Assembly (NCBI GenBank): GCA_025358205.1
Contig: JANYKG010000021.1
Coordinates: 1-33,502, forward strand
From: Armatimonadota bacterium
Lineage (GTDB): Bacteria; Armatimonadota; UBA5829; DTJY01
Direction of reading: 5' to 3'
DNA length: 33,502 bases
Shown here: positions 15,601 through 30,951 of the stretch, one piece after another
Numbering within the stretch: the stretch's first letter is position 1
Layout: every line of letters starts with the position of its first letter
Program-made: the position numbers and the translations under genes
Notes under the pieces: generated by a model
Databases searched by the model: none
Seen by the model: only the letters and a program-made list of their open reading frames with translations
Told to the model about the DNA's origin: nothing

Positions 15601-15863
15601 TTCCTGCGGATGAATGTGGCCATGCCGCCATCCATCTTCCCCAGGGTCGCAGTCAGCCGCATATCTTCATATGAATACAGGAACGCGTCTGTTGTCTGGG
15701 CCGGGATGCCATAGAGCAGGTTGACGATGGCACGTAGCATGGTGCTCTTGCCCGCCTCGTTGGGCCCGTACACAATGTGGAAGTCGCTCGACCCGGTAGA
15801 AAGGTCAAGTAACTGTTCCTCAAAGGAGCCGAAGCGCTCAATTTTGAACGTATGTATCTTCAT
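12603..15863 (-). CDS. SbcC/Rad50-like AAA ATPase with long coiled coil (YhaN type)
   Basis: A 1086-residue ATPase of the SMC/Rad50/SbcC class, expected to form a DNA-end-processing complex with the phosphoesterase encoded immediately upstream. The N-terminal half-domain carries Walker A in VYGPNEAGKSTMLRAI (about 31-46). Long coiled coils run from about 180 to 960. The C-terminal half-domain has the ABC-type signature MSDGTRDQLYLALR (994-1007), Walker B LPLIVDDVLIEFDD (1021-1034) and a switch FTHHRH at about 1057. The IVDD form of Walker B and the DGTRDQ signature resemble the YhaN branch rather than canonical SbcC. I see no CxxC zinc hook at the coiled-coil apex. GGAGG (15869-15873 on the complement) precedes the ATG, which directly follows the previous stop (TAGATG). 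It is the last gene of the - strand operon. Confidence 0.88.
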   Translation of the reverse strand: MKIHTFKIERFGSFEEQLLDLSTGSSDFHIVYGPNEAGKSTMLRAIVNLLYGIPAQTTDAFLYSYEDMRLTATLGKMDGGMATFIRRKGNKATLLDANQQPIDEGILASFLCGITMNAFTTMFGFDYQLLLKGRQDLKEGKGDLAESLFQAGMGITGLRGVLEGLQREKDGVFSPRSNASTPVMNSALRQYKEAMKNVGDLAVRPKEWHKLADEIKSIEADFEDVRKTYDKHLAEKTRFERFQKAFPFASQRGVIHQSLSDLPTEQILTESQVERYRSANERLLNAAAERDRITKQKCEIEARWSDAGLIGRLIRHKDEIASLQSRLLQYESARKDLPKVAGEQTRHESDAKGILQDMGVEQALHGPPFLCIGVIQRTAIAEFAMKHFGAEMPRTKVLSSQAKDPSGLKRHIEAAADEGRIEQTALEACKKLAALKEEADNALRSLTLWQGTLEKLAELPVPLDQTVSRFEREFSGIDSSIRDIERDMQSHESDLEANEEKISVLEGTRPVPTENELTQDRERRQQGWALVRRGWLDGEPVVAELAHFDPDHSLEQAYEISVDKADDTADRLRFEADRVASLAELKAGVAKAESKLEGLGVDLQNLRSQHQEKDAQWTELWAPVEISEPLSPAEMREWLRRHERLVQFCKDIRDKETKLAEIQEAITSHRTQILEELASVGVSVIPDDTTLQYLISLSRDLIESAVRLKELALKVEQGNDALSRVQQMENSVATFSSDVAQMLAQTQMTELACREAGEAAKGIQEKFEQAAKDHAGLDLLESQINDASDAQNTAENDLIALAGEVACVDLQALETAVVDSEEYYQLKTRQKELDEMLAAHSAGASVEDLIAEISEISEDELPALIAGLARELQGLDARRDELSDLRGNKRRELGDLDHSGELAEEVQKAQSALAEARSAVERYVPLHLAAEILGMEIERYQKENQDPVLSRASEIFPQLTLGSFEKVATQHTTKGNQVIVGVRPSGTQVDVGGMSDGTRDQLYLALRIASLEQHLKGGVLLPLIVDDVLIEFDDERACAALEALAQLSQKTQVLYFTHHRHIVELAGNSVGTDRVSMHELATFART

Positions 15864-17126
15864 CTAGACCTCCTTGCCCAGAAGCCGCGAAACCAGTAAT
15901 TGCTGAACGTCAGGAAGTGCCCGTACGACCACCGCCGGGTCGGAGAGAATGATCGGATCTTCTCCCGTGCGAAGCTCGACCGGCAGTCTCGTCTCTAACT
16001 CGGCCAGCCCGCGCAGCAATGCCTGCTGCGTTTCAGGCGAGTTGCCGATCTGCGATATGGAATCCAGCAGTTCCTTCCAACCATCAGCACATTCGTCGCT
16101 GTTCTCGTTTTCCGTGAGCACATTGACCTTCTCAATCCAGACCTGATCAGACACAGCATTCGCACGGATCTGGCTGCCCCAACGGTCAGTATTCGTGCGC
16201 AGTGTTGGGTTCGCAGAGCAACTGCCGCATATCTCAACCCGAAGAGCGAGTAGATGCTCTGGCGCTTTCGCCATCTTCTCTTCAACTGACAACTGCACGC
16301 GGTGCATAACATCGTCGGGAGTCGCTGCATCCGTTGCATCAACCGTGCACAGATACCACCGAACCACATCGAGGTCCTTGTGCTCAACGGTAGTGATCTC
16401 GCCGTCCGATACCGTGACTATTGTGCAGCCTTTGGGCCCAGTTTCTCTGGCATGACGGCCCTGGACGTTACCTGGAAAGACAACCCAGGGGGTCATACCA
16501 TCTCGACCCTCGGGGCGACAGACTTCCTGTCGTTTGTGGATGTGCCCCAACGCCCAGTAGTCGTAGCCTTTTGCCGTAAGGCTTGCGACACTGCAGGGAG
16601 CGCATTCGTCGTGCCCGGAATATCCCATAGCGCTTGTGTGCAGAAGCCCTATGTTGAACAAACCTCGAACAGGGTCGGCGTAGCCTCTGGCAAGATCGGC
16701 TGCCACTCCTCGGCTCGCAAAGCTCTGACCGTGGACAGCCACCCCAAGGTCGTCCAATGGTATCGTTTCAGGATGGCTTGTGGAGAAGACTTTTACATTT
16801 GGCGGCAGGTTCAGATACTTCGTAATCTGGCTCTCCGCATCGTGGTTACCTTTAACAATGAACACGGGGACGTTCGCATCCTCAAGAATTGACATCTGTT
16901 TGGCAAAGAAGAGCCCTGTATTGTAGTCCCGCCAATCACCATCGTACAGGTCCCCGGATATCAGCAGGAAATCGATCTCTTGTTCAGAGTCTATTGCCAG
17001 GTTGACGAGGTTTTCCAATGCTCGCCGTGTCGCCCCGCGGATATCATCAGCAGGCGCGCCCTCATAATTGGACAACCCCCGCAGTGGACTATCAAGGTGA
17101 ATATCAGATGCGTGAACGAACCTCAT
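15864..17126 (-). CDS. SbcD/Mre11-like metallophosphoesterase (YhaO type DNA exonuclease)
   Basis: A 420-residue calcineurin-like phosphoesterase of the SbcD/Mre11/YhaO group, a probable DNA nuclease working with the adjacent SbcC-like ATPase. The metal-binding motifs are complete: D8 and H10 in FVHASDIHLDSPL, GDLYDGDW at about 58-65, GNHD at 93-96, a histidine in LLHTSAMG (about 163), and GHIH at 194-197. The C-terminal 180 residues form a cap and ATPase-binding part. GGAGG (17136-17140, complement) lies 9 nt before the ATG. A 77-bp gap separates it from the BrxA-like gene, wider than any other gap in this operon, so this pair may be an appended module. Housekeeping repair is the alternative, but the same-strand position at the end of a defence operon argues for a linked role. 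Confidence 0.88.
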   Translation of the reverse strand: MRFVHASDIHLDSPLRGLSNYEGAPADDIRGATRRALENLVNLAIDSEQEIDFLLISGDLYDGDWRDYNTGLFFAKQMSILEDANVPVFIVKGNHDAESQITKYLNLPPNVKVFSTSHPETIPLDDLGVAVHGQSFASRGVAADLARGYADPVRGLFNIGLLHTSAMGYSGHDECAPCSVASLTAKGYDYWALGHIHKRQEVCRPEGRDGMTPWVVFPGNVQGRHARETGPKGCTIVTVSDGEITTVEHKDLDVVRWYLCTVDATDAATPDDVMHRVQLSVEEKMAKAPEHLLALRVEICGSCSANPTLRTNTDRWGSQIRANAVSDQVWIEKVNVLTENENSDECADGWKELLDSISQIGNSPETQQALLRGLAELETRLPVELRTGEDPIILSDPAVVVRALPDVQQLLVSRLLGKEV

Positions 17127-17203: not shown

Positions 17204-17941
17204 CTACTTGAGCTTGACGAGTTCGTAATCCAGCCCGTGTCGTATCATCTCCAGACGACTGTTGCGCTCGACGTCCGAGGGCTTCAGCACTGAAATATCC
17301 AACGAAAACAGTGCAGGCGAAGCTCGAACTTCACTCAGCGTGCCAGAGGATGCACCGGACAACAGCATTGCTTCGAGAATCCAGGCGCTAAGTTCAGGAT
17401 CAGTGATTCTCGTTCTCTGGCCCAGATGATAAACGCCTTTAACGTCTGTATCAGTCAAGACTCCCCAGTCGACAAATGACCTTAGAGCCCTTTGGCAAGA
17501 TCGAGAGACTGTCTGTCGCTCCCCGTAAGTCTCCTTGATTCGGCGTAGCACTTGGGATACTGAAGCTGTGCCTTGCAGTCCCAAGAGTCGACCAGTGATC
17601 TCTGCGACATCTCTCCAGAATGGGTATGTAGCCATCAGCGCCGACCAGTGAATAGCCAAATGCTCATCCACAGGTGTCCGCCCAAGTATCTGCAATCCCG
17701 CATTCTTGAACGGTGAGAGGCGAGTAGGTGTATTTGCCCAGACCCGCATAAGCACGGTTATCGTCTTCTCTCTGCATCCTCTGCCGGAGTCACCTCCACC
17801 GGAGAGAACGTCTTTGAGCTTCTCTTGCAGGGCAGCCGCGATGTCTTCTTTGCTGTTTCCTGCCATAACCAGTGAAGCAGTATACTCCAGCCACTCATGC
17901 CTGATTCTTCGGTCAATCCCGACTGGTCTTTCCTGATTCAC
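17204..17941 (-). CDS. BrxA-like winged-helix protein (candidate BREX component)
   Basis: A 245-residue protein that best fits the BrxA family by size, position and pattern. It starts with GTG at 17941, overlapping the PglZ stop as GTGA. The middle part reads HWSALMATYPFWRDVAEITG (about 98-117) and then a winged-helix-like stretch with SVSQVLRRIKETYG (about 127-140) and RALRSFVDWGVL (151-162). Helix-turn-helix elements near YPFF/YPFW are a feature I associate with BrxA proteins, which bind DNA and are small accessory parts of BREX systems. In type 3 BREX the brxA gene follows pglZ, exactly as here. Sequence similarity within this family is low, so the identification rests strongly on context. 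No catalytic motif is visible. The next gene starts after a 77-bp gap. Confidence 0.62.
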   Translation of the reverse strand: MNQERPVGIDRRIRHEWLEYTASLVMAGNSKEDIAAALQEKLKDVLSGGGDSGRGCREKTITVLMRVWANTPTRLSPFKNAGLQILGRTPVDEHLAIHWSALMATYPFWRDVAEITGRLLGLQGTASVSQVLRRIKETYGERQTVSRSCQRALRSFVDWGVLTDTDVKGVYHLGQRTRITDPELSAWILEAMLLSGASSGTLSEVRASPALFSLDISVLKPSDVERNSRLEMIRHGLDYELVKLK

Positions 17942-19962
17942 TGTTTCCCCCGCTTCACTTCAACAAACGGAACGACAACTTCCTCAAGCGATATTCCGCC
18001 ATGACTCACAACTGTCTCGCCAACCGGAATGAACCCATATCGTCGTCCTGCCAGCAATGGCAAGTAATTCTCTGGCAGGCCAATAGCTGGCCATTCTAGG
18101 GCATCTGGGAACTGCGCCTTAGTCAGCGACCGCAGCTCAGCACTGGGGTACACCCGAACCCTCTCACCGCGAACATCGGCAACAGCGCCCTCGAGAGGAC
18201 GACCGATTCCAGTGGATTCCACGTTTCCGTGGTCCGACGTCAGGAATACGCGGAAGTCAGCGTCAATCAGCATCCGAACAATGTCCGACAACAAGCCCTG
18301 CTGTACCCATTGCAGAACCTGATTCTGCATTCCTGCTGCACCGAGCTCCATCCCATGCATGATCTTGTCGAGTTTGTCGACCACAATTGCTAACGCACGC
18401 TTTCTCGAGCGACCGACCAACTCGGACAGATCGGCCAAGTCCCGGCGTTCGCCCATTCCCTTGATATAGCCGACCTCGGTCGCATTCAGCCCGTGTTCAC
18501 TCCAGAACTGCTGCCACAACCTGGGCTCGGCATCAGTAGAACCTATGGTGGATGGGAAATAGAACGGTGGCTTGCCTGCTAGTATCGCCTGTCTTGATAT
18601 TGAGGTAACTGTCGGCACCCATGCAAAAACTGCGTTCTCTCCAAACAACAAATCGCATTCTTGAACGATCAGAGCCTCTCGTATTGTCACCCATTGGTCA
18701 TACGCCATTCCGTCCAAGATGACAAGCGCGATTTTTGCTTTCGGAGTGCCTTCCATCTGCCTTGCCAGAAATCTGGGGATGTGGTGCACCATGACTGGTG
18801 GCATAGGCGGCTGATTGTGCAGCACTATGTATTTCCTCAGCATCCAAGCAACAAACGCGGAGTCCACTCGTTCCTGGACTGATCTGAAGCAATCCGCGAG
18901 ATCGTTTTTGCCATGCTCATCGGTCTTGTGGAAGCTGGCGGTCAGTTGTGCCCAGCGATGCGCGAAGAGCATCCAATCCTGATAGCTACAGTCCTCGCCC
19001 GGAATCGAGCGATCCGAACTATCGAGCATCTCACGCAATCTTGGTGTTGAGTCACCATCGCTCTCCGATTTGATGCCTACTGTGATCCAGCTATCTCTAC
19101 CGGAGAGCCGCCCGGCTACGCCTGCATCATCCACTCCAACAGTGTGTAAGTACCCCTCGAGGAACAGATCGTCAACGTATACGTGCACATCATCATGACT
19201 GAATGGTAGGTCGGCCGGGCCGCTGAACTTGAGGTGCTCACGCATCTGATCCGGCATAACATTTCCCGTGTCGACCCCAAGCGTTTTGCTCACGAAGATC
19301 GGCCAGCGCTCCTGGAGAAATGCATAGAAGAATTCTGTATGCGGCACGATCTCTTCAAGTGGCCATTCATTGAACCCACCGTTCTGTCGAAGAATCTGGA
19401 TAAAGCGATCATCCAGATTCTTCGGAATCCTTTGACCTGTGTAGTGACGGCGCAGAAGTACACGCAGTAGATCAGGCGACGTCTTGATCAGTTCCGGAGC
19501 GATTCCGAAAACGTGCCGTAGGATGAATTCCCTTGTGGAATTGTCGCCGAGTCTGTCTGGATTCTGTTGTTGTTGAGCGATGAAAAGGCTGTCCAGATCG
19601 GCACGATCCAGCGTGGATACTACAGAACAACTGAGGTTAGGAAACATATCTCCGATGCTAAATGAAAGCAGCCTTCCGCCTTTCAGTAGATCGTAAGGCA
19701 CGGTGCGCGGATCATCGGTGTCAAACCTGACCACCACTGACGAGTCCAGCGCCTCTCCTATGTCCCATCTCGAACGGTACTTCGATTCATAGGTGTAGCG
19801 GAATGAAACTGCGTCTTCGAAGCTAATGATGTCAAACCCCTTGCTTCTTACACCATCCGCCAGACGTTCCTCTCTGATCAAGCCATCGGGGTCCAACGCC
19901 AACGTCAGACTCGATACATCGACAGTGAATCTTCTTAGTATCTGATCACGCCATCCGCTCAC
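17938..19962 (-). CDS. pglZ: PglZ-family phosphatase-like protein, BREX (type 3-like)
   Basis: A 674-residue PglZ protein, the hallmark of BREX and Pgl anti-phage systems, with an alkaline-phosphatase-superfamily core. The N-terminal 400 residues are helical and poorly conserved. The PglZ domain starts at ALVILDGMAYDQW (about 412-424, metal-ligand Asp417). It continues with WVPTVTSISRQAILAG (about 448-463, candidate nucleophile Thr/Ser), FLTSDHGNVES (about 573-583, D577 and H578) and SHGGISLEEVVVPF near the C-terminus. All expected metal ligands therefore appear present. The start is a GTG at 19962 overlapping the helicase stop as GTGA; its own stop overlaps the BrxA-like gene the same way. 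PglZ is needed for phage exclusion and, in several systems, for methylation, but its exact reaction in the cell is not settled. Confidence 0.9.
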   Translation of the reverse strand: MSGWRDQILRRFTVDVSSLTLALDPDGLIREERLADGVRSKGFDIISFEDAVSFRYTYESKYRSRWDIGEALDSSVVVRFDTDDPRTVPYDLLKGGRLLSFSIGDMFPNLSCSVVSTLDRADLDSLFIAQQQQNPDRLGDNSTREFILRHVFGIAPELIKTSPDLLRVLLRRHYTGQRIPKNLDDRFIQILRQNGGFNEWPLEEIVPHTEFFYAFLQERWPIFVSKTLGVDTGNVMPDQMREHLKFSGPADLPFSHDDVHVYVDDLFLEGYLHTVGVDDAGVAGRLSGRDSWITVGIKSESDGDSTPRLREMLDSSDRSIPGEDCSYQDWMLFAHRWAQLTASFHKTDEHGKNDLADCFRSVQERVDSAFVAWMLRKYIVLHNQPPMPPVMVHHIPRFLARQMEGTPKAKIALVILDGMAYDQWVTIREALIVQECDLLFGENAVFAWVPTVTSISRQAILAGKPPFYFPSTIGSTDAEPRLWQQFWSEHGLNATEVGYIKGMGERRDLADLSELVGRSRKRALAIVVDKLDKIMHGMELGAAGMQNQVLQWVQQGLLSDIVRMLIDADFRVFLTSDHGNVESTGIGRPLEGAVADVRGERVRVYPSAELRSLTKAQFPDALEWPAIGLPENYLPLLAGRRYGFIPVGETVVSHGGISLEEVVVPFVEVKRGKQ

Positions 19963-22748
19963 TGACCAGACCCTCCATTGACTCGCACGATTAGCAGAGG
20001 GAACATCTCGGGACTGATCTCGGACTTCGTCTCAAGCTGCCGCAGCGATTCATTCTCTTCTTGGGCCAGCTTCATAAGCCTGTGGTCGCGCACGGCGGGA
20101 AGACCGATCCTTGACACTGCGATCCTACGTCGGGAGAAGGCGTAGTCTCCCTTCTCTCGTTCGCGAGATAGCCTGGCGCGATGCTCTTGCACCAGTTCAT
20201 CGTATATACTCCTACCAATGTTCGTGGCTGCGTTCTCGCTGCTCTCATACTGGTGCCCAGCATCCTCTATGATCTTGCTGTCGATCTCAAAGCTCTCTGC
20301 GAGTAGCTGATCCCAGATGCTGCGCGCAGTTGGCGTAAGAACCCGTCCGTCGTCGTGAACGAATATCGGCATGACCCTGCCCTGATTCCAGTCTGGAGTA
20401 CGCAGGCATATCTGCCAAAGAGACCATATTCCACTCACATCACTGGGGAGAGAATGCACACGAACTGCCGGAAGAGGTTGCCCTTTGGCAAACCTGGGAA
20501 GGCGCATTGCGAGACCTCTCACTCGGGTGTCCTCGAGCGTAAGATGCCGTGCTACGGGGCTGATCTCTGCGTCTCGTAGCGTGAACACCACGCTGTCTTC
20601 CTTGATTCCATCGGGCCAAGTGATCTGCCACGTGCGTCCGTTTTTCGCGGCGCTCCCATTGTGAGACAGGAGATAGCTGGTTGTCATCTTCTCTACCCAG
20701 TCGGGCAACGGGTGAGTGCGCAACTTTTCGGCATCGCCGGGATCAAGTTCCGTTGAAGAACCCAAGACTGATGAGGTTTCCCGTGCAACCTTTGCTTGTT
20801 CCTGGATCTCCGATACCACGGCTTCCACTTTGGTGCTGAGGCTGTCCGGGTCGAGTATGGCATCCACGTACAGGCTATCGAACATCTGACCTGACTGGGC
20901 GGAGTCAAGCACGTCGCTGGTCTTATCAACGCCAAACTCTTCTAGAATGATGGCAAGCTTCTCTTCCAGGACCTGCCGCACCCGAAATTCGACGGTGTCA
21001 TTTAGGACGAAGTTGAGAGCACGCACAACGTGCTCCTGGCCGATACGGTCCACGCGGCCGATGCGCTGCTCCATCTTCATCGGATTCCAGGGAATGTCAT
21101 AGTTGATGGCCACGTGGCAAAACTGCAGATTCAGACCCTCGCCACCGGCGTCGGTAGAGACCAGTATCCTGGCGCTTTCGGCAAACGTTGCCTGCGCCTT
21201 TTCCCGCTCTTCAAGGCTCATTCCGCCATTCAATGTGACAACCGAGAAACCACGGGCGGTCAGAAACTCACGCAGCATTTCCTGGGTTGCCACGAACTCC
21301 GTGAAGAGAAGCACTTTCAGGTCAGGGTCGCTTTCCTCTTGCTGAAGTCGATATATCCAATCGAGAAGAGCTACCGCCTTTGCATCAGGTCCGCTTGCTT
21401 CTGTAAGTTTGGCGAGATCGAGCAAAGCCTTTACTTCGACGCGCTCGTTTCTCATAGCCGATACCCGAGCGGACAACAGGGCGTCAATCTGCTCTTGACC
21501 ATCCATCTCTGACCAATCGTCTTCCATCAACGAAGGGAACAGAGACGGCTGCTCACTTGACGGTTGCAGTATCTCCAGCCTTCTTTCCAGCATAGTTCGA
21601 ATCGCTCTGGTAGAGGATGTCACTAGTCTTTGGGTCAGGATCATGAGGAAACCGAGATAGTTCTTCCGCTCCTGGACGGACTGGTTGTAGCCTTGCCGAA
21701 CATACTCGGTCGTCGCTTCGTACAGGAGTTTCTGATTCCTAGACCTCTCATCCCAGCACACGGGAAACAATTCCGTCCGTCGCGGTTTGAAGAGCGGCTT
21801 CCCTTGCGCGTCTATCGCATTCCGCTTCTCTGTCCTGATCACGTAGGGCTGGACGCGTTCCCGTGTCACACTTGCGGCATCAGGAAAAGCGTCCGTGTCG
21901 ATCAGAGAAACAAGTCGATGGAAAGCATCGCTTTTCCCCTGATGAGGTGTGGCCGACAGTAGCAGCAGATAGGGAGCAGCTTCGGCTAGTCCTTGGCCAA
22001 GCTTGTACCGTGCGACTTGCTCAGTGCTACCACCAAGGCGATGCGCTTCGTCGACCACAACCATATCCCAGCCTGCGGATATCAGATCCTCAAATCGATC
22101 TCTGTTGTAGTCGGAGAGTCGTTGCTCCGTCCATCCGCGTCTGCCCTCAATAGGCTTTACCGAATCTAATGAACAGACGACTTGGTCAAAGCTGCGCCAG
22201 ATGTTATCTTCACGGACGATCCGGCGATATGCCTCAAAATCGCTTGGGATGAGCAGTCGGAAATCCTCACCGAAGTGTGTGCGCATCTCCGCCACCCACT
22301 GATTCACAAGACCTTTGGGCACGATTATGAGTATTCGTTTGACCAGCCCGCGCAGCTTCAACTCGCGGATAATGAGCCCTGCCTCGATGGTCTTTCCTAG
22401 ACCTACCTCATCAGCCAGCAGGAAGCGAACACGATCATTGGAAACGGCTTGGGACAGAGCTCGTATCTGATGCGGTAGCGGGATCACAGATGCCTCGATT
22501 GGCGCTATCAACACGTCCTTAGTCAGGGCGTCGGCAACTCGCGAAGCTGCAGCAATGTAGGTTATCATCTCAGAGCTCATCTGCAGCGATTCGCTAATCG
22601 GTTTTAGCTTGTCGGCAAGGATGCGAACAACAGTGTCTTGGTCTGGCAACCAAACACGGCACATGGTCTGCCCCCACAGAGTCTGTTCGTCGAGAACCTT
22701 GCACAAGCAGTCGTGGATAGTGCTGAATTGCCACTCAGATTCCATCAC
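19959..22748 (-). CDS. SNF2/RapA-type superfamily 2 helicase (BrxHII/DrmD-like)
   Basis: A 929-residue SF2 translocase. Walker A is in LLADEVGLGKTIEAGLIIRE (about 110-129), motif II is VVDEAHRLGG with DEAH at 233-236, and motif III is LLLLSATPHQGKSD. The C-terminal RecA lobe carries VSTDAGGEGLNLQF and QRIGRVDRIGQEH at roughly 530-570. These are the signatures of the HepA/RapA branch of SNF2 proteins. The helicase of type 3 BREX (BrxHII) and DrmD of DISARM belong to this broad group; the PglX/PglZ neighbours favour BrxHII. The start is GTG at 22748 (GTGA overlap with the protease gene) or ATG at 22745 (TGATG). The last 300 residues are a family-specific extension. It would remodel or translocate along DNA as part of the defence complex. 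Confidence 0.9.
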   Translation of the reverse strand: MMESEWQFSTIHDCLCKVLDEQTLWGQTMCRVWLPDQDTVVRILADKLKPISESLQMSSEMITYIAAASRVADALTKDVLIAPIEASVIPLPHQIRALSQAVSNDRVRFLLADEVGLGKTIEAGLIIRELKLRGLVKRILIIVPKGLVNQWVAEMRTHFGEDFRLLIPSDFEAYRRIVREDNIWRSFDQVVCSLDSVKPIEGRRGWTEQRLSDYNRDRFEDLISAGWDMVVVDEAHRLGGSTEQVARYKLGQGLAEAAPYLLLLSATPHQGKSDAFHRLVSLIDTDAFPDAASVTRERVQPYVIRTEKRNAIDAQGKPLFKPRRTELFPVCWDERSRNQKLLYEATTEYVRQGYNQSVQERKNYLGFLMILTQRLVTSSTRAIRTMLERRLEILQPSSEQPSLFPSLMEDDWSEMDGQEQIDALLSARVSAMRNERVEVKALLDLAKLTEASGPDAKAVALLDWIYRLQQEESDPDLKVLLFTEFVATQEMLREFLTARGFSVVTLNGGMSLEEREKAQATFAESARILVSTDAGGEGLNLQFCHVAINYDIPWNPMKMEQRIGRVDRIGQEHVVRALNFVLNDTVEFRVRQVLEEKLAIILEEFGVDKTSDVLDSAQSGQMFDSLYVDAILDPDSLSTKVEAVVSEIQEQAKVARETSSVLGSSTELDPGDAEKLRTHPLPDWVEKMTTSYLLSHNGSAAKNGRTWQITWPDGIKEDSVVFTLRDAEISPVARHLTLEDTRVRGLAMRLPRFAKGQPLPAVRVHSLPSDVSGIWSLWQICLRTPDWNQGRVMPIFVHDDGRVLTPTARSIWDQLLAESFEIDSKIIEDAGHQYESSENAATNIGRSIYDELVQEHRARLSREREKGDYAFSRRRIAVSRIGLPAVRDHRLMKLAQEENESLRQLETKSEISPEMFPLLIVRVNGGSGQ

Positions 22749-25399
22749 TCGATACCTTCGCTCAGTTGCTGGATTTGGATGGCAGGCACAATCCGAGCGC
22801 GGATTTCGTCATAAACGGCAATATCGACACCTTCACTGACCTCTAAGGAAACAGCCATGCCATACGGAATGGGCGTAATAATCTTTCCTGCATCCTCACG
22901 GCAATTGACCTTGATCTCCATAGCATCACCATCAATAAACGGCTCCGCTCTTTGACCCTCAAGAACCTCATGCTGAACTGTTCCCCGGCGTACTGCCTGC
23001 CAATCTGCATCACTTCGGGTTGGAACAAGATTGCTGTTCTTAGTTTCGAACCACAGACTTGCTGTCCGGTATTTCTGCGTGTTTGCGGACAAGGGGGAAA
23101 GCCATGCGAGAGTAACGGTCAGTCTTCTCCATTCGGGGCGTGAACCAAGAGAAGGCGGCAGGGGCAAGCGGAATACGTGTGCTTGGCCATCCGTTAGCTG
23201 CCCGAATCCCAATAGAGAGGCGCGTTGCTCAGTGCAATCAAGGACTCGATCCATCTGCGGCATGCCGTAGCCTAACCAACGAGAGAGAAGTTTCTTATAC
23301 TGCCTGTTTACCTCTTTGACTCTTTCAGCAGGTCTAGAATAGAGATTCTGAGCCCTTTGAGAAATGGAATCCCCAATCTCCGAGTTCGCGATGGCCTCCA
23401 GTAGCCTTTCGCCCATGTCAGCCCACATGCATCCGTGAACAAGCATCGCCTTGAGCAACGGGGTGATATAGACATCGGCGTTGATATCAGATGCCTGATC
23501 GCTGATTATCTGCATCAACGAGTCATAACAGATCCCTGCAGATCGGCTGATCAACGCAGTAGCATTGCTTGTTCCACAGGAATACGAAGTGGCCGTAAGC
23601 TCTCCCTCCAAGCTCCCAGGCGATGCCACCTTGTTCCCAGGTGCTACTCGAAAGATAGCAGGCTCAATGACCGTTGGATCGGTTCGTGCTAATGGCAATC
23701 GGTACCATTGTCTCCCACCTACAAACACGATGTCGGGCTTTACAGATCTGCGGTAGCCGCTTCCAAAAGCAGACACTGGGCTGGGAAACACCTGCTCGAA
23801 GGGGTCAAATCGACTCCTTGGAACAATCCCTTCTGATCTGTCAAAATGCACGGCACCAACCGTTATTCCGTTGAGGCTCTCCGCTGGAGAAAGCAGCTTG
23901 CGGTGTCGTGCGTCTTCATAGAGGGATTTGATTGTGGCCTTTTCGAGTTCGTTGGGCTGAAGCCCTTCGAACTCATCGCGAGTAATGCCCAAATGAATTG
24001 GCGTGCAGTGGTTCCCTGCACTGATGATGAACAATACATTGTACCTGACGCTCAGCCAATCCAAGAGCCTTGCGACAGGACTCATTGCCTGTGCGAAATG
24101 CCTACTTGGATCCCCTATGGACAGATTGATAATTCTGACGTGCGGGGCAACTGGTTCCTCTCCCGCATCGCCCTCAAAAATCCTCTTTACCGCACGATGA
24201 ATCAAATCTACTGCAAGAACGTCGTCTGGCACATACTCACGCCGTGGTGTCCGGAAATCGTTTGGTAGTGGTTTCGTAATTGGACGGACGTAGACGGGCC
24301 GCGCCAGCGGTGAGACACCATCATTCAGGTCACCCTGCACAACCAAGGAAGCCATCGATGTTCCGTGAACGCGTTCTGATGCAGCATAATCGGAAGACCA
24401 ATCATCGGGATCGTCAATCACCAGTCTGTCTGCCAACAAGCGGTGATTCGCCAGTGGAAGCCCATCTAGGATTGCGATCACAGGATCGCCAGTCGGTAGT
24501 GGCATTTCCTCGAATGTGCTGATCTCAGGCTCACCTTCGGCTGGGTGATCACCGGCTGACATCTGCCCAACTGGCCTAAAGAACATGACATTATCGCACT
24601 TGACCAATTCAGTTGTCGGATCACCGATTATCGTCCGTACGGAGTTGGCTGGCAGCTCAGCTAGTAGCCCATGATAGGCGATTTCCTCTAGAACAGATTG
24701 GCCCAGGACGCGCCCTCCAGCTTGCTGTACCAGATTTTCGACTTGATTTCGGCTGAGCTGCCTCTTCTCGTCGCTTCCGCGAAACCAGAGCTCAGCCTCG
24801 AATCGGAGTAATCTGTCGCCATCATATTCCAGGTCCTCGCGCCATGCGTCAATGACGCCAGTCTCCAAAAGACGGTCTTGAACATCCCACCTGCGGATAT
24901 CTTTGAGACAGACAAAGACATCCCTGAATCTGGTGAATCCGCGCTCGAATTGCATATTGGCATCAGCCTGATATCGACGCCATAGAGAGAGCATTTCATC
25001 TAGTGCCCTCTGATTGGTCATTATCAAATATAAGCGACCGCTCAGTTCCTTTGCTGGCTTCGATGCATCGAAGAAATCCTCATCAGGAGTTATCTCATCG
25101 ACTTCGATCTCTCCCATCCACTCCAAGCCTTCGATGTATTTCACTGCGTTAGCGAACTTGTCAATGCCTCCGATGGTCTCAATAACAAGAACCTGTTCGG
25201 GATCAATTCCGGCAGTTGACTGCTGTATTTCAACTCTTCGGGTTTCGAATGCCTCCTGAAGATGGTTAAACATCGGCACTAGCCGATCCCCTTGTCGTTG
25301 ATGAGATGGCTTTGCTATGTTACTCGGGCCTCCACCTGGGCTTGATTTGGATGCCATTTCCGGTGCTGGAAAAAGAAGAAGCGGGCGCTCAGGCATCAT
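22745..25399 (-). CDS. Subtilisin-like S8 serine protease, IetS-like
   Basis: An 884-residue cytoplasmic subtilase with no signal peptide. The catalytic set is intact: Asp312 in IAILDGLPLANH, His345 in VHGTSMASLV, oxyanion Asn463 in ISAGNH, and Ser611 in SCGTSNATALISR. A region of about 300 residues precedes the protease domain, and about 250 residues with a jelly-roll-like end follow it. It is encoded directly after an AAA ATPase (11-nt overlap), the exact composition of the two-gene defence system ietAS, in which both ATPase and protease activities are required. The ribosome site GGAGG (25403-25407 complement) fits the second of two adjacent ATGs (25396) better than the first (25399). Activation by the ATPase and cleavage of a phage or host target are inferred; the substrate is unknown. 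Confidence 0.9.
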   Translation of the reverse strand: MMPERPLLLFPAPEMASKSSPGGGPSNIAKPSHQRQGDRLVPMFNHLQEAFETRRVEIQQSTAGIDPEQVLVIETIGGIDKFANAVKYIEGLEWMGEIEVDEITPDEDFFDASKPAKELSGRLYLIMTNQRALDEMLSLWRRYQADANMQFERGFTRFRDVFVCLKDIRRWDVQDRLLETGVIDAWREDLEYDGDRLLRFEAELWFRGSDEKRQLSRNQVENLVQQAGGRVLGQSVLEEIAYHGLLAELPANSVRTIIGDPTTELVKCDNVMFFRPVGQMSAGDHPAEGEPEISTFEEMPLPTGDPVIAILDGLPLANHRLLADRLVIDDPDDWSSDYAASERVHGTSMASLVVQGDLNDGVSPLARPVYVRPITKPLPNDFRTPRREYVPDDVLAVDLIHRAVKRIFEGDAGEEPVAPHVRIINLSIGDPSRHFAQAMSPVARLLDWLSVRYNVLFIISAGNHCTPIHLGITRDEFEGLQPNELEKATIKSLYEDARHRKLLSPAESLNGITVGAVHFDRSEGIVPRSRFDPFEQVFPSPVSAFGSGYRRSVKPDIVFVGGRQWYRLPLARTDPTVIEPAIFRVAPGNKVASPGSLEGELTATSYSCGTSNATALISRSAGICYDSLMQIISDQASDINADVYITPLLKAMLVHGCMWADMGERLLEAIANSEIGDSISQRAQNLYSRPAERVKEVNRQYKKLLSRWLGYGMPQMDRVLDCTEQRASLLGFGQLTDGQAHVFRLPLPPSLGSRPEWRRLTVTLAWLSPLSANTQKYRTASLWFETKNSNLVPTRSDADWQAVRRGTVQHEVLEGQRAEPFIDGDAMEIKVNCREDAGKIITPIPYGMAVSLEVSEGVDIAVYDEIRARIVPAIQIQQLSEGIE

Positions 25400-26393
25400 T
25401 CACCTCCATCTCACCTTGCTGCTCCACCTTGACAGATCTTGCAGACCACTGCTGGAGAGTTCTGGTGACAATCTCCTTCATGTCAGAACCGGGCTGTTCC
25501 AAGACATACTGGCGGAATGCCGTTGTTCCAAACTCCTCCACTTCCGCGAAATTCGATCCGAGTAGTCGTTTGGCCAGTGTTGCCGGGGAATGGCCGAGAG
25601 ACACATTAATACGGCGTTCGTATCTTTCAAACCACTCAGTCAACCGCGCTCTGGTTGGTTCAGGCAGGTTCATGCGAACTTGAAAACGCCGCCATACAGC
25701 GCGGTCGAGGAGTTCCGCATGATTTGTGGCACCGATCACCATGACATGACTTGGCAGGCTGTCGATCTGGAGAAGCAATGAACTGACAACCCGTTTGATC
25801 TCCCCTGTCTCGTGGGTGTCTCCGCGCTCCTTGCCGAGGGTCTCGAACTCGTCAAAGAAAAGGACGCATTTCCTAGTAGCAGCATATTCGAAGAGTTTCC
25901 GCAGACGAACCGCAGTCTCACCAAGATATGTGCCGACCACGCTCTCGTATCGGACAACCAAGAGGGGTACGAGCAAAGCTTCTGCGATGGCTTCTGCCAA
26001 AGACGTTTTCCCATTTCCGGGAGGCCCGATGAGAAGCAGGCGATTGCGGGGTTCTAGGTTATAGGACCGCAACAAATCGGAGCGATGGTGCTCCTGCACA
26101 AGACCCTGGCAGATCTGAATGACGTGATCGGGCAGTATAAGGTCAGCCAGTTTCCATTTTGGCATGATCTCGTGAACCATGTTTGCCATGCGCTGGTCGA
26201 GCATGGGCATGCCGTTTGGTACAGGACGGTCCACCGGCGTACTGTTCAGTATCTCCTCAAGTCTTTCGGCCAGCACTTGGTGCTGCTTGGATCGTTCCTC
26301 CGCTATAATGGCCTCAATGACCTTGCGCAATGTAGCCTTGTCACCCTGAATGCCTGACTGAACCAGGCGGATCAGTAGGTCCGCTCTAGCCAT
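25389..26393 (-). CDS. AAA ATPase partnered with the subtilase, IetA-like
   Basis: A 334-residue classical AAA ATPase with one nucleotide-binding domain. Walker A is GPPGNGKTS at 123-131, Walker B is CVLFFDEFETLG at about 176-187, sensor 1 is IGATNH at about 220-225, and arginine fingers lie in RAVWRRF at about 231-237. The pore-loop-like segment YLGETAVRLRKLF (about 156-168) resembles FtsH/spastin-type remodellers, and residues 1-85 form a helical partner-binding region. It overlaps the S8 protease gene by 11 nt, so the pair looks like an IetAS unit: an ATP-driven unfoldase or sensor controlling a protease. GGAGG (26400-26404 complement) precedes the ATG, and the methyltransferase stop overlaps it by one base (TAATG). 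A role as a general protein-quality factor is the less likely alternative. Confidence 0.9.
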   Translation of the reverse strand: MARADLLIRLVQSGIQGDKATLRKVIEAIIAEERSKQHQVLAERLEEILNSTPVDRPVPNGMPMLDQRMANMVHEIMPKWKLADLILPDHVIQICQGLVQEHHRSDLLRSYNLEPRNRLLLIGPPGNGKTSLAEAIAEALLVPLLVVRYESVVGTYLGETAVRLRKLFEYAATRKCVLFFDEFETLGKERGDTHETGEIKRVVSSLLLQIDSLPSHVMVIGATNHAELLDRAVWRRFQVRMNLPEPTRARLTEWFERYERRINVSLGHSPATLAKRLLGSNFAEVEEFGTTAFRQYVLEQPGSDMKEIVTRTLQQWSARSVKVEQQGEMEVNDA

Positions 26394-29119
26394 TAGTTAC
26401 CTCCCATCCTGGTCACCGCTTGATCGTACCACATCAACAGCTTCGGATCTTCCTGGAGCACGGCGTCAGGTATCTTGTTTGCGACTTCAATGATCGTTTG
26501 GTAGTCTCGGTCTTGCCAAGCTCTTCTGAACCCAGCACGGACGGCCTCCAATCGGAAAACTTTCAGCTTTCGCTGCGCAGACTGCCGATAGTCCTCGAAC
26601 TCTCTGAGCAGGGTGCGCTCACGCAGCTTTTCCAAGTCGCCTGCCTTGTTGGGATCAGGCACATACCAGCGATCCTTGGCTTTGTTCTGAAGATCTGGAT
26701 CATCCTTGGTCAGATTGCGCATCTCACGGAAGTCCGTAGAAAGGTAACTGTGGATCTGGCTTGGCACATCGCCCTTGCCGTCATAACGGAGGAAATTCTG
26801 CTCCAGCAGATCCGAGAGTTCCAGTGCCTTCTCGTGCTTTGCCCATCCGCCAATCTCTCTCATGAACTGCGGGTGCATATCCTGGAATGTCTGCGGCTTC
26901 TTCGTGAGTTGTTGTTTCAGCCACTGGATGGCCGACGATTCATCCGTCACGAATAGATCAAGCTGCAGAACCTCGCTCACGGTCATCCGCTTTCGGTCGT
27001 ACTCGGCAACCTGATCGGACATGAAGTACATCCCGTCCCGGACTGGGAACCTCTGCTCTAGTCCAGCATAGAATTCTGCTGCGGACGCTGGCACAGAAAA
27101 ACCCCTCTGGACATGGAATGCGACCATACGGTCGAAAAGCAGGTAGTTCTGACGTTCCACAACAACCTGAGCTTTGCCATCGTCCGCAACGAATACGGGC
27201 AATTGCGTCAAGTGAGTGCGTATGAAATCCCAGACTCCTGCCTCAGTACCGGCATCAAGCTTGAAGCGCTCCTCAAGTCCGCCGTTCGGCCTGTAGGCTG
27301 AGATGACGAGGTCCTGTTTGGCGATGTTTGCATGTGTTCCCTGCAGCATGGTGATCTTCCTACGATCCAGTACGCGGACATCGGCAATAACCAGTCCTGC
27401 CTGCCACAAAGCGGTCTGAATCGCTTGCCACACCGAGTTGTTGGAATTGTGGAACTCGATTGTGACCCATCGGCCAGGTTTGAGCACGCGGTAGATCTCG
27501 TGAAGAGCACGTGTCATTAACTGACGATAGCTGTCCAAGTCCTTGTGCTGTGTACTATTCTGGATCGCCTCCGGCTCTGCATTCGTGAAGACTCCGAGCC
27601 AGTATTCGTTCAGGAAGTTGAGTTCCGAATACATAAGGTTGGCACCGAACGGAGGGTCAATAAAGACATAGTCTATGCTATCATCTGGGATCTGTGACAC
27701 TGCCGTAGCCGACTGTGTACTAACGATGTAGTGCTGAGTAGCCAGCATCCGAGCGCACTTCCTGTGAGTAGGCACTTTGTCTCTCAAGTAGGCGATGGGC
27801 TCTCTCTCCACCTGCAACGGAGGCATATAGAGAGTGCCTGAGAACGGCCCAACGACCCCGCTACCGTTCTTCGTTGGGATAAACCTGTTCATCCGTGTAA
27901 GACGGTTCAAGAGCGACGTGAACACGAAGAGACCGTAGTTCCCATATGCGCCTACCAGAGCTTCACGCACGTCGCAGGCTATGCATAGGACTCTGGCATC
28001 GAAGAACTGGTGCACGTGTGTCATTCCGAAGTGGTAGCCAGACCGATACATGTCCCCCCTAATGAGCTCACGAGGAGTTGGTAAACCTGCTGGCAATCTT
28101 GACTCATATTCTCCGGCAATGCGCACATCCTGTTCATCAGGATCCTTTTCCCTGCGACCATCTATTGCCTCATGATTGATGAGGACGAGTTCGCGCTTGA
28201 TGCGTTCAGCAGGCGCAGCTAACACTGCATCGAAGTAGGATTCATGCACCTTCTGGCACGTTAGACTACTGATGGCAGCTCCGCAATGGGGGCACCCGAA
28301 TTCCTTATGCATTTTGCCTGTCTGGATCTCCACGCCATTTCCCCAGAAAACAACCTCGTGTGAGCAATCGGGGCAGTATACTATGTCGCTCCAAACGCCG
28401 AACTGAATGTGGGCTTGCTTGCCGTTCACCAGGGTCACTATTCCGTCCCTGTGTTTCTCCTCAAGTGTCCTAATAATCGATTCCACACCAGGAAGGGCGC
28501 GCCTAGCATCCGGCACAAGGTAGTTATGATTGATGAAACCACAGATCGGTGACAGGTCTATACAGATAGGGATTCTTCCGGCCAACGAGGCCGCTACACC
28601 CGTCATACCACTACCGGCGAAAACATCGAGCACAAGGTCTCCCGGCTCAGTGAAATGATCAATGAAATGCGATATCGACTTGTAAGGCACCTTGGTATGG
28701 TAGCTGTGTAACTTGTAGATCGGATCGTTCTTTCCCTCACTAACATCCACAGCGAATGGTTCTCTATGGTACGGCGTGTTCGGGTCGTACGGTTTGCCGT
28801 GGTGCGCAATGAACTCAGCGATGAATGGATTCGGACAGGCCGTGTAGTACGGCGGATCCGACAGACGCAAGATGTCCTCATCGCTGCCGAGCGGGAAGCC
28901 TTCGATCTTCCTGAACTCGGTGTCCTGCAGCTTCTCCCGCAGCTTCCCGAGGAAATAAGCCCGGCGGGCGTCATCACTCTCGAACGTCATCCCAAGGCAT
29001 TCCACACGCGCAGACTCATTGGCTAACTGCTCAGGAGTCTTGTCGATCAGGTTCATTTGCCCATCTTCTCCTATGAACAATCCACCCGTGGCTGAGCTAG
29101 ATCGTCGGCGTTTGCTCAT
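26393..29119 (-). CDS. PglX-type adenine/cytosine-N DNA methyltransferase with zinc ribbon (COG1743/DUF1156-like, PglXI candidate)
   Basis: A 908-residue DNA methyltransferase, the probable modification arm that marks self DNA. The S-adenosylmethionine-binding motif is VLDVFAGSGMTGVAA (about 163-177). The catalytic motif is FIDPPFGANLMYSE (487-500), with DPPF at 488-491 diagnostic of N6-adenine or N4-cytosine methylation. Between them is a zinc ribbon with CPDC (249-252) and CPHC (276-279). Near the N-terminus DPPYYTACPNPF (88-99) is a second DPPY-like sequence that is conserved in my memory of this subfamily. COG1743-type enzymes are the methylases (PglXI) of type 3 BREX. The last 300 residues, after about 600, have no recognised domain and may mediate specificity or complex assembly. 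Its ATG overlaps the preceding stop as ATGA. Confidence 0.88.
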   Translation of the reverse strand: MSKRRRSSSATGGLFIGEDGQMNLIDKTPEQLANESARVECLGMTFESDDARRAYFLGKLREKLQDTEFRKIEGFPLGSDEDILRLSDPPYYTACPNPFIAEFIAHHGKPYDPNTPYHREPFAVDVSEGKNDPIYKLHSYHTKVPYKSISHFIDHFTEPGDLVLDVFAGSGMTGVAASLAGRIPICIDLSPICGFINHNYLVPDARRALPGVESIIRTLEEKHRDGIVTLVNGKQAHIQFGVWSDIVYCPDCSHEVVFWGNGVEIQTGKMHKEFGCPHCGAAISSLTCQKVHESYFDAVLAAPAERIKRELVLINHEAIDGRREKDPDEQDVRIAGEYESRLPAGLPTPRELIRGDMYRSGYHFGMTHVHQFFDARVLCIACDVREALVGAYGNYGLFVFTSLLNRLTRMNRFIPTKNGSGVVGPFSGTLYMPPLQVEREPIAYLRDKVPTHRKCARMLATQHYIVSTQSATAVSQIPDDSIDYVFIDPPFGANLMYSELNFLNEYWLGVFTNAEPEAIQNSTQHKDLDSYRQLMTRALHEIYRVLKPGRWVTIEFHNSNNSVWQAIQTALWQAGLVIADVRVLDRRKITMLQGTHANIAKQDLVISAYRPNGGLEERFKLDAGTEAGVWDFIRTHLTQLPVFVADDGKAQVVVERQNYLLFDRMVAFHVQRGFSVPASAAEFYAGLEQRFPVRDGMYFMSDQVAEYDRKRMTVSEVLQLDLFVTDESSAIQWLKQQLTKKPQTFQDMHPQFMREIGGWAKHEKALELSDLLEQNFLRYDGKGDVPSQIHSYLSTDFREMRNLTKDDPDLQNKAKDRWYVPDPNKAGDLEKLRERTLLREFEDYRQSAQRKLKVFRLEAVRAGFRRAWQDRDYQTIIEVANKIPDAVLQEDPKLLMWYDQAVTRMGGN

Positions 29120-30951
29120 TTCTCATCTCCATTGCCAGTCTTTGCATTCGTGGAAAGACGTCTCGCCTTGAGCTCGACTCCCGCCTCTGTTAGCACATAA
29201 GCTTGCCCCGGGTGATTCGGCTGCTCAGGGTATTTCAGCCGTAAGATGTTGCCTAGGAGCATTGGCTTCAGGTGCTTTCGCACAAAGAATGATCTGTGTG
29301 TCAGTTTCAGGTGCTCCATTATGCTATCAAGCGATTGTGGAACGTCGCAGAGCATCAGGATTCGCCACTGAGTCTCGCTTAGCTCCTTGAGAACTACACC
29401 TTGGTCAGTGACCAACTCCTCTCGATTCCTAGGAACTTGGTCAGTGACTAAGTTCGCTTCAGGCGTTTCAGGTTGGTCACTCTTGACCGTCCGGGGCGCG
29501 AATCTCCCTTTGAAGTGTTCCTTGACGATATAATGCGCCTGATGAGAGCCGTCGACACGGTCAATCAGCGACTGCACGACCAACCTATCAAGTAGTTCCT
29601 GGGCATCCGGCGAGCTGAGTCCCGTTACCGCCTTCACATCCACGAGCCCAACCAAGTCTTGTCGACAAGCGAGGGCAAAAACGGCCGCTTCAGCTTTGCT
29701 TAGGCGAACGCCTATGCCCGCCTGGAGTAACACCTGCTCCTCTGTGAGCAGCTCCTGCTTCGGTAGCACTATCTCGAATGAGCCACCAGCCTTGTCATTG
29801 CGTATCTCCGGAGGAATCCTGCCCAACTCGCGCCAGCTCTTGAATATCGCCCGGACACCAGTTCCAGCTTGCTCGCTGAAGCCAATCCTGCGGAAGGCAT
29901 TGACTATTCGAGGATTGCGGACCGGTTTCTGACCCGGTTCCAGAAGCTCCTCTGTTGAAGAGTCCCCAGGATTCCACAGGACCGTGCAATCCCGGTAGAA
30001 CTGCACAACCGGAATGCGCTTGTGGTCTCCATAGTCCTGATGAATCAGCAGGTTAATAACCGCTTCGCGCATGGCGATGTAGTCCGGCGGCGTGTCGTCG
30101 CGCTGCAGTGTCTTCGAGTCAACGGAGAAGGGATTCTCGCTGTTCTTTCCATAGCGCTGAACAAAGCCACGCCACGCCTGAATGATATTGGCCTCGACGA
30201 CCAAGCGGTCATCCCAGCGCTTGCTGGGTAACTCATCAAATCTGCTGATGTTAACCCACTGGCAATCGAGCACGGGTCTTGGGAGCACCTGTCGAACGAC
30301 TTGCTCAGCGCCGAATACGAGAATTCCCGCCCTCGTAGGCAAAAGCTTTTCGGGTAGCTCTTTGACGAGTCCCCAGTGGTGAAGATACTCCAAATCTGTG
30401 AGCGTATCGTCATTACCCGGATGGAGGTTTCGATACCATTGGACCGAGTCGCTATCAAAGCAATGCTCAGGATCGAAGTCAAGAGTCTCACCATCGTACT
30501 CATCGCCTGCGGCGTCGCGCAGGAACCGATGGATCTCGTCCATAGTGCACTTCTCATCGCAGGCACCACGGCGGACGTATGAGCGCTTGATATCGCCGTT
30601 CAGGCATACCGGCTTGTCTTGACGCCGAGCCTCTGGAATGCGAAATACTAGTAGTGTTTTACTTTCATGGGACAGCATCTGTTCGTCCGGATTGACTACC
30701 AAGCCGAGCTTGTCCCCTGCACGCAAACACGATAGGAAGTCATTCTGAACCTTGTCTACTTCTATTACTCCGACGATATCGTAGGTCCCGCTCGCCTCCT
30801 TGATGCCAAAGACAAGCCAGCCTCCAGAAGTATTGGAGAATGCCGAGACAGTCTCATAGGCAGAATCAGACACTTGCTTCTGTGCCGCCTTGAACTCCAC
30901 ATCCGTCCATTCATAGCCCTTGAGCCTTTCGAGCAGTTCATCTTTGGTCAT
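29116..30951 (-). CDS. AlbA_2 (Schlafen AAA_4-like) protein with GHKL-type ATPase region and winged helices
   Basis: A 611-residue protein of the group often mis-named RecG-like helicase. The N-terminal AlbA_2 domain (about 10-145) shows EWTDVEFKAA and the conserved AFSNTSGGWLVFGI (about 37-50), with SYVRRGA at about 124-130. A GHKL-like ATP-binding region follows, with MREAVINLLIHQDYGDH at about 300-316 and an ATP-lid-like FSEQAGTGVRAIF. Two winged-helix-like domains lie at about 410-480 and 535-600. They are joined by a linker with LVTDQ repeats, encoded by palindromic DNA at 29401-29488. It has no helicase motifs. Such proteins act as transcriptional regulators or nucleic-acid binders, and related Schlafen domains cleave RNA; which applies here is unknown. 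It lies between the BrxC-like and PglX-like genes (5-bp gap, 4-nt overlap), so it belongs to the operon. Confidence 0.82.
   Translation of the reverse strand: MTKDELLERLKGYEWTDVEFKAAQKQVSDSAYETVSAFSNTSGGWLVFGIKEASGTYDIVGVIEVDKVQNDFLSCLRAGDKLGLVVNPDEQMLSHESKTLLVFRIPEARRQDKPVCLNGDIKRSYVRRGACDEKCTMDEIHRFLRDAAGDEYDGETLDFDPEHCFDSDSVQWYRNLHPGNDDTLTDLEYLHHWGLVKELPEKLLPTRAGILVFGAEQVVRQVLPRPVLDCQWVNISRFDELPSKRWDDRLVVEANIIQAWRGFVQRYGKNSENPFSVDSKTLQRDDTPPDYIAMREAVINLLIHQDYGDHKRIPVVQFYRDCTVLWNPGDSSTEELLEPGQKPVRNPRIVNAFRRIGFSEQAGTGVRAIFKSWRELGRIPPEIRNDKAGGSFEIVLPKQELLTEEQVLLQAGIGVRLSKAEAAVFALACRQDLVGLVDVKAVTGLSSPDAQELLDRLVVQSLIDRVDGSHQAHYIVKEHFKGRFAPRTVKSDQPETPEANLVTDQVPRNREELVTDQGVVLKELSETQWRILMLCDVPQSLDSIMEHLKLTHRSFFVRKHLKPMLLGNILRLKYPEQPNHPGQAYVLTEAGVELKARRLSTNAKTGNGDEK
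29401..29488. repeat. Three intragenic palindromes encoding the TDQ-rich linker
   Basis: TTGGTCAGTGACCAA (29401-29415) is a perfect 15-bp odd palindrome. A copy with one mismatch, TTGGTCAGTGACTAA, is at 29437-29451, starting 36 bp later, and a looser GGTCA/TGACC pair lies at 29475-29488. They code for the (T/S)DQ repeats of the AlbA_2 protein linker. They may simply reflect codon use of a short peptide repeat that is common in this family, or a regulatory or slippage-prone site. Confidence 0.6.

Follow-up and report, generated by a model that had tools for sequence, protein, structure and literature searches.

IetAS is known as an anti-phage gene pair made up of an AAA+ ATPase (IetA) and a subtilase (IetS), and it is usually described as two genes that stand alone. 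A related pair, SgiAT of SGI1, is a proven toxin–antitoxin (TA) system in which the subtilase SgiT is toxic and the AAA protein SgiA acts as the antitoxin (PMC5006074). That defence genes can reside within the operons of other defence systems is also a known theme, and the location of DarTG2 between hsdS and hsdR of a type I restriction–modification (R-M) system provides a tested precedent for an embedded TA system (PMC12255303). In bacteriophage exclusion (BREX) loci, Schlafen proteins with a minimal histidine kinase are common auxiliary effectors, according to the main text of a 2026 survey (PMC12839542). The subject here is an IetAS-like pair in a stretch of 33,502 nucleotides (the window) from an Armatimonadota bacterium (contig JANYKG010000021.1 of assembly GCA_025358205.1), where it lies between the genes pglXI and brxHII of a type 3 BREX (BREX-3) operon. 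The reading favoured, with modest confidence, is that the pair is a TA-like protease module of the IetAS family which occupies an exchangeable slot at the pglXI–brxHII junction and forms a largely self-contained second layer of defence.

The gene pair and its family

The two open reading frames lie on the minus strand, where a reading made from the sequence alone had placed them: IetA (334 aa) runs from 26393 to 25389 and IetS (884 aa, or 883 if translation starts at the second ATG at 25396) from 25399 to 22745. That sequence-only reading had described an AAA ATPase and a subtilase with an intact active site, and both descriptions hold. Scoring against IetA and IetS profiles, which it had proposed, places both proteins in the family: the PADLOC models cover them end to end, with 498 bits for IetA (PDLC04232, residues 1–325 of 334) and 1115 bits for IetS (PDLC04233, residues 2–877 of 884; Pfam PF00082 also matches). 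These matches rule out that the pair belongs to AAA and S8 families unrelated to defence. In alignments, the Walker A and B motifs, sensor N224, the arginine fingers R235/R236 and a Y/F-L-G pore loop of IetA are conserved in 34 of 34 homologues, and the catalytic D312/H345/N463/S611 of IetS (numbered from the first Met) in 44 of 44. The NCBIfam IteA and IteS equivalog cutoffs were missed by both proteins (223 of 510 bits and 73 of 900 bits, respectively). Members of the same PADLOC subfamily on rhizobial plasmids likewise score below these cutoffs, so the window pair appears to belong to a broad IetAS subfamily that lies outside the NCBI IteA/IteS names. Judged by its sequence, the pair is therefore a member of the IetAS family in the broad sense and not of the NCBIfam equivalog: an IetA-homologous ATPase is followed by an adjacent IetS-homologous subtilase with intact catalytic residues. 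The stand-alone, two-gene layout, which is not a matter of homology, is not matched by the window pair, embedded as it is between pglXI and brxHII. The same genome holds a second, distant IetAS pair (G000:C108; L004:1674-5226), whose IetA is 31% identical to that of the window and which scores 232 bits (IetA) and 121 bits (IetS) with PADLOC.

Relatives inside and outside BREX

Relatives of IetS were sought by a scan of genome contigs, which gave 80 IetS loci. The order pglXI–IetA–IetS–brxHII is also found in L016 (Aminicenantes), L017 (Deltaproteobacteria), L022 (Desulfobulbus), L025 (Desulfovibrionaceae), L145 and L149. These six loci span several phyla and bring the number with IetAS at this junction to seven, the window included; the recurrence of the same four-gene order makes the arrangement more than chance, and it shows that not all relatives have an empty junction. 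Elsewhere the family keeps different company. The pair of L014, with 84% (IetA) and 73% (IetS) identity to the window proteins, sits 214 bases behind hsdR of a type I R-M system, that of L023 lies between hsdS and hsdR, that of L019 is inside an Hma system and that of L026 follows a BREX-1-type PglX, whilst the close relatives L018 and L021 stand alone, as does the family on the plasmids examined. A genome-wide look found type 3 PglXI absent from all nine genomes with non-BREX members of the window clade. Type I R-M or DUF1156/DUF499 (Hma-like) genes also border pairs from other IetAS subclades (L073, L091, L068, L094 and L043), so a link with modification systems extends more widely than the window clade. 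Around that clade such systems are enriched (Fisher p 0.004–0.02), but this is given no weight here, as some of the reference proteins were themselves drawn from it. In one further locus (L020:5438-7786), a relative of the pair adjoins an AAA_13 (PrrC/RloC-type) protein.

Contents of the pglXI–brxHII slot

The contents of the junction were surveyed independently of IetAS: type 3 methylases were searched for in the phylum of the window and in that of L022, their neighbourhoods were read, and the cargo was identified with Pfam and PADLOC. The slot count is confined to the 13 loci from the search of the L022 phylum in which both borders are resolved; it leaves out L022 (the centre of the search) and L017 (already found through IetS), both of which carry IetAS, as well as L153, whose BrxHII-like gene lies outside the operon order and encodes only a distant helicase. 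On this basis the slot is filled in 12 of 13 loci, with IetAS in two of them (L145 and L149). The other occupants include complete and unrelated defence systems, namely PsyrT and PsyrA in L150 (993 and 445 bits) and Gabija in L151 (GajA, 910 bits, with a UvrD-like gene), alongside AIPR/AbiU (L141), a Hachiman-like helicase (L144, PDC-M23B), DUF3644 (L137, PDC-S19), DUF5343 (L140, PDC-M34A), a kinase (L139) and an AAA_21 protein (L152). In four more loci, where the far border is unresolved, pglXI is followed by SIR2 and HerA (L143), SIR2 (L147), Dazbog DzbA (L146) or Ppl (L153). Within the window's own class, a complete genome (G001, locus L113) has DUF3644 in the slot and a BrxHII 65% identical to that of the window. 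The slot is empty in L148, and empty or nearly so in the plasmid-borne BREX-3 loci L114, L115 and L117 and in most of the distant BREX-3 loci of the window's phylum. The junction between pglZ and brxA was never occupied (0 of 18 loci) and that between brxHII and pglZ is seldom occupied. The count of IetAS at methylase–helicase junctions that the sequence-only reading had called for thus has two sides: six further loci carry the pair there, but among resolved loci sampled through the methylase it is present in only 2 of 13. IetAS is not, in other words, found in most members of this BREX subtype, the slot being elsewhere empty or filled with other cargo.

Evidence for cassette exchange

The two BREX-3 copies within genome G338 differ in the cargo of the slot, an AbiU-like gene in one (L141) and IetAS in the other (L145). 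Their DNA is 79% identical in brxC and 78% in pglXI; the match ends about 8 bases short of the pglXI stop codon and is picked up again near the start of brxHII, downstream of which the identity is 82%. On a tree of the core proteins PglXI, BrxHII and PglZ, the presence of IetAS needs at least four changes, and the IetAS tree disagrees with the core tree. In the former, the window groups with the neighbour of a type I R-M system (support 100/100), and a single clade of all BREX-3 IetAS is rejected (approximately unbiased test, p 5.6e-37).

A finer trace of exchange is found at the start of the helicase. Residues 1–18 of BrxHII from L016 and L145 are 78% identical to those of the IetAS-bearing locus L022, and only 50% and 33% identical to those of their neighbours on the core tree, whereas over the next 40 residues the relation is reversed (88% and 68% to the core neighbours, against 45% and 50% to L022). 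This contrast between blocks, taken over 16 loci, has a permutation p of 0.001. The pattern is most simply explained if the IetAS cassette carries along the first ~18 codons of brxHII, one border of its exchange by homologous recombination lying within the 5′ part of that gene. Taken across the loci compared, the pair is intact, kept at the junction in seven of them, swappable with breaks at gene borders, and present outside BREX.

Gene overlaps and junction sequences

The genes of the pair are joined to their neighbours by short overlaps. The sequence-only reading had given these as 1 nt between the methylase and IetA, 11 nt between IetA and IetS and 4 nt between IetS and the helicase. The first is correct (a TAATG stop/start); the second applies only from the first ATG of IetS, the overlap (ATGCCTGA) being 8 nt from the second ATG, which is the start used by relatives and gives an overlap common to those in BREX-3; and the third applies only if brxHII starts at GTG (GTGA), the overlap being 1 nt with the ATG start. 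The same reading had held that the genes are not a loose insertion, and this is upheld by the tight coupling into the operon and by IetAS at the same junction in the six other BREX-3 loci. The overlaps suggest that translation of the pair is coupled to that of the neighbouring genes. At the entrance to the slot (26393–26405, minus strand), a Shine–Dalgarno-like GGGAGG in the last codons of pglXI, six bases before the start of IetA, is combined with the TAATG. Comparison of pglXI 3′ ends found mostly TRMGG/TRTGE-like codons in the subgroup, and these include a GGAGG-like sequence in most sampled relatives, which makes it a putative ribosome-binding site ahead of the cargo; some cargos start more than a few bases from it.

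The host operon

The presence of PglXI, BrxHII, PglZ of type 3 and BrxA in this order, together with a DUF6079 BrxC, identifies the host operon from its gene content as type 3 BREX. The methylase that borders the pair was correctly assigned to a BREX operon in the sequence-only reading; it is not a classical PglX but the type 3 adenine methylase PglXI (26393–29119; PDLC02541, 1235 bits). All genes of the operon are on the minus strand. BrxC (30957–33452; PDLC02482, 1151 bits, profile positions 409–1231) lacks its N-terminal ~408 residues, since the gene is cut by the contig end at 33502, and BrxF and the BrxC N-terminus are beyond view. Downstream of the pair are the Swi2/Snf2 helicase BrxHII (19959–22748; PDLC02500, 1490 bits), PglZ (17938–19962; NF033449, 762 bits against a cutoff of 250) and BrxA (17204–17941; PDLC02444, 269 bits). 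Between brxC and pglXI lies a gene for a protein with Schlafen/AlbA_2 and HATPase_c_4 domains (29116–30951; PF04326 and PF13749), which fits the Schlafen-type auxiliaries described in the main text of the BREX survey (PMC12839542). An AlbA_2 gene occupies the same place in L022, L114, L117, L148 and others, and is missing from it in the IetAS-bearing loci L016, L017, L149 and L145. The interval is a second accessory position, mostly held by Schlafen/AlbA_2 genes and in some loci (L144, L145, L150 and L151) by others.

Several further features were observed in these loci. Closely after BrxA, the window encodes a Mre11-like phosphoesterase and a Rad50/YhaN-like ATPase (AAA_27; 12603–17126, minus strand), and at its other end a serine recombinase with a zinc ribbon (28–1257, plus strand), a possible sign of a mobile island. 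The BREX-3 methylase gene of G001 is broken into two frames that stop codons separate (L113:7253-10361), and the Aminicenantes brxHII is likewise in two frames (L016:12612-15382), owing to an assembly error or to a frameshift. At L016:15376-16158 and L113:14245-14613, brxHII and pglZ are separated by an additional gene, which starts similarly in both loci; that of L016 has a weak HhH-GPD base-excision match.

Predicted structure and proposed mechanism

The AlphaFold model of IetA (pLDDT 80) has the 26S, PAN, FtsH and p97 motors as its nearest folds, and the motor features of an FtsH/PAN-like protease machine (Walker A/B, arginine fingers and an aromatic-hydrophobic-Gly pore loop) are all kept in 34 of 34 IetA sequences. 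In the model of IetS, predicted with high confidence (pLDDT 90, pTM 0.92), the subtilase domain is accompanied by a beta domain at the C-terminus and an extensive region at the N-terminus, and the nearest fold in the PDB is the pro-subtilase pro-Tk-SP (3afg); a sequence search matched IetS to no solved structure. Just ahead of the catalytic domain, the strands and helices of residues 197–275 follow one another as in a subtilase prodomain (strand-helix-strand-strand-helix-strand), and IetS may be autoinhibited through this prodomain-like region. The gene order, with the AAA gene upstream of the subtilase gene in one operon, is that of the pTiC58/SgiAT type of TA system. As related pairs are TA systems with a subtilase toxin (PMC5006074), a normally silent, self-contained proteolytic second layer is favoured. 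In such a scheme the pair would be expressed together with the BREX operon, and IetA, as an AAA+ ring of the substrate-threading type, would keep IetS inactive or feed substrates to it. A phage cue would upset the balance between the two proteins, and IetS would then cut host or phage proteins, stopping growth of the phage or of the cell (abortive infection). Co-expression with BREX, toxicity, the abortive outcome and the trigger are thus what we infer for the pair.

Weighing the alternatives

Several observations weigh against a self-contained, exchangeable module. The BREX-3 IetAS pairs largely form one subclade, seven of whose nine members are in BREX-3 (support 89/91), which could reflect adaptation to BREX instead of free cargo; the match at the N-terminus of BrxHII could mean that the start of the helicase is adapted to, or contacts, IetAS, rather than recombination; and the slot is nearly always filled in the sampled subgroup, so that a partner of some kind may be required at that place. 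Distant relatives, moreover, are the only source of the toxin role, and for the window pair both toxicity and anti-phage activity are predictions. The sequence-only reading had gone furthest in tying the pair to BREX: the protease would be an integral effector or regulator, its cleavage of PglZ, the AlbA_2 protein or a phage protein being a required step of the system. The tight overlaps, the shared position in seven loci and the BREX-3-rich subclade speak for such a role, which is nevertheless very improbable. The junction is empty or holds unrelated genes, among them complete defence systems, in most close relatives, and the repeated changes on the core tree point the same way; the nearest IetAS relatives occur in genomes without type 3 BREX, so an integral role is not supported. 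Nor would free swapping be expected of a protease dedicated to PglZ or to the AlbA_2 protein, the gene for which is absent from four IetAS-bearing operons. A looser tie, put forward tentatively, is that the slot is a dedicated effector socket of this BREX-3 subgroup, in which the ribosome-binding site in the pglXI 3′ end would drive any inserted defence system, exchange would proceed by recombination in pglXI and brxHII, and BREX would serve as a platform for expression, and perhaps for licensing, with IetAS as a common cargo.

It is also conceivable, if unlikely, that IetAS guards BREX, by analogy with PrrC, which guards a type Ic R-M system, and with PARIS, which senses Ocr. IetA would silence IetS for as long as BREX works, and would release it when a phage inhibitor (a DNA mimic, an S-adenosylmethionine hydrolase or an inhibitor of BrxC) blocks the system. 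The recurrence of IetAS at modification-based systems (BREX-3; type I R-M in L014, L023, L073 and L091; Hma in L019; the BREX-1-type PglX in L026) is consistent with a guard, as is the presence among the other slot occupants of PsyrTA, an abortive system of the TA type; yet relatives also occur as stand-alone pairs in plasmids and chromosomes (L018, L021 and L008–L013), and the host systems have only a methylase in common. Less probable still is an addiction module, in which the death of cells that have lost the operon or its mobile element would stabilise it, and phage defence would play a secondary part or none. The analogy is with the closest characterised pairs, pTiC58 IetAS and SGI1 SgiAT, which are maintenance TA systems (PMC5006074), and the PADLOC subfamily of the window pair is common on rhizobial plasmids; against it, the systems that share the slot (Gabija, PsyrTA, AbiU-like) are dedicated to phage defence and are not typical addiction modules. 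A swappable protease module of the IetAS family, placed in BREX-3 as a second layer, remains the reading preferred here.

Comparison with known systems

In place of a protease that forms part of BREX, this reading offers a rule that can be tested: a single gap in type 3 BREX takes in whole defence systems of unrelated kinds, the genes overlapping and the breaks falling at their borders. If the rule is true, reading the pglXI–brxHII gap across genomes would lead directly to defence systems not yet described, and G338, with its two copies, would lend itself to the question of whether BREX and its cargo act independently or jointly. Proteolytic effectors would also be brought into a field hitherto described mainly through nucleases. 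IetAS as a BREX cargo and the sharply bounded exchange slot appear to be new. A 2024 preprint by Payne et al. (doi 10.1101/2024.01.29.577857, cited in PMC12255303) is said to list guilt-by-embedding candidates, that is, defence genes embedded inside other defence operons. A literature search combining BREX with subtilisin found nothing relevant, and the main text of the BREX survey, which catalogues nucleases only, makes no mention of subtilases, IetA or an exchange slot (PMC12839542).

Among described systems, the anti-phage IetAS pair of PADLOC is the closest, with the same gene order, end-to-end matches and intact active sites; the window pair differs in its embedding in a BREX operon and in its NCBIfam IteA/IteS scores below the cutoffs. 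The pairs of pTiC58 and SGI1 share the upstream AAA ATPase and the downstream subtilase, but they are maintenance modules of a plasmid or island, SgiAT having a putative promoter of its own, whereas the window genes overlap pglXI and brxHII. DarTG2 in type I R-M is alike as a complete TA-type defence module within a modification-based operon, and differs in toxin chemistry, in host operon and in the control of its island by the repressor RptR. The auxiliary nuclease effectors of BREX, which in the survey's main text include Schlafen, OLD and HEPN types (PMC12839542), are optional second-layer effectors in BREX loci, and the Schlafen type is also present in the window. Finally, the PADLOC candidate families PDC-S19, PDC-M23B and PDC-M34A occupy the very slot that is held in the window by IetAS.

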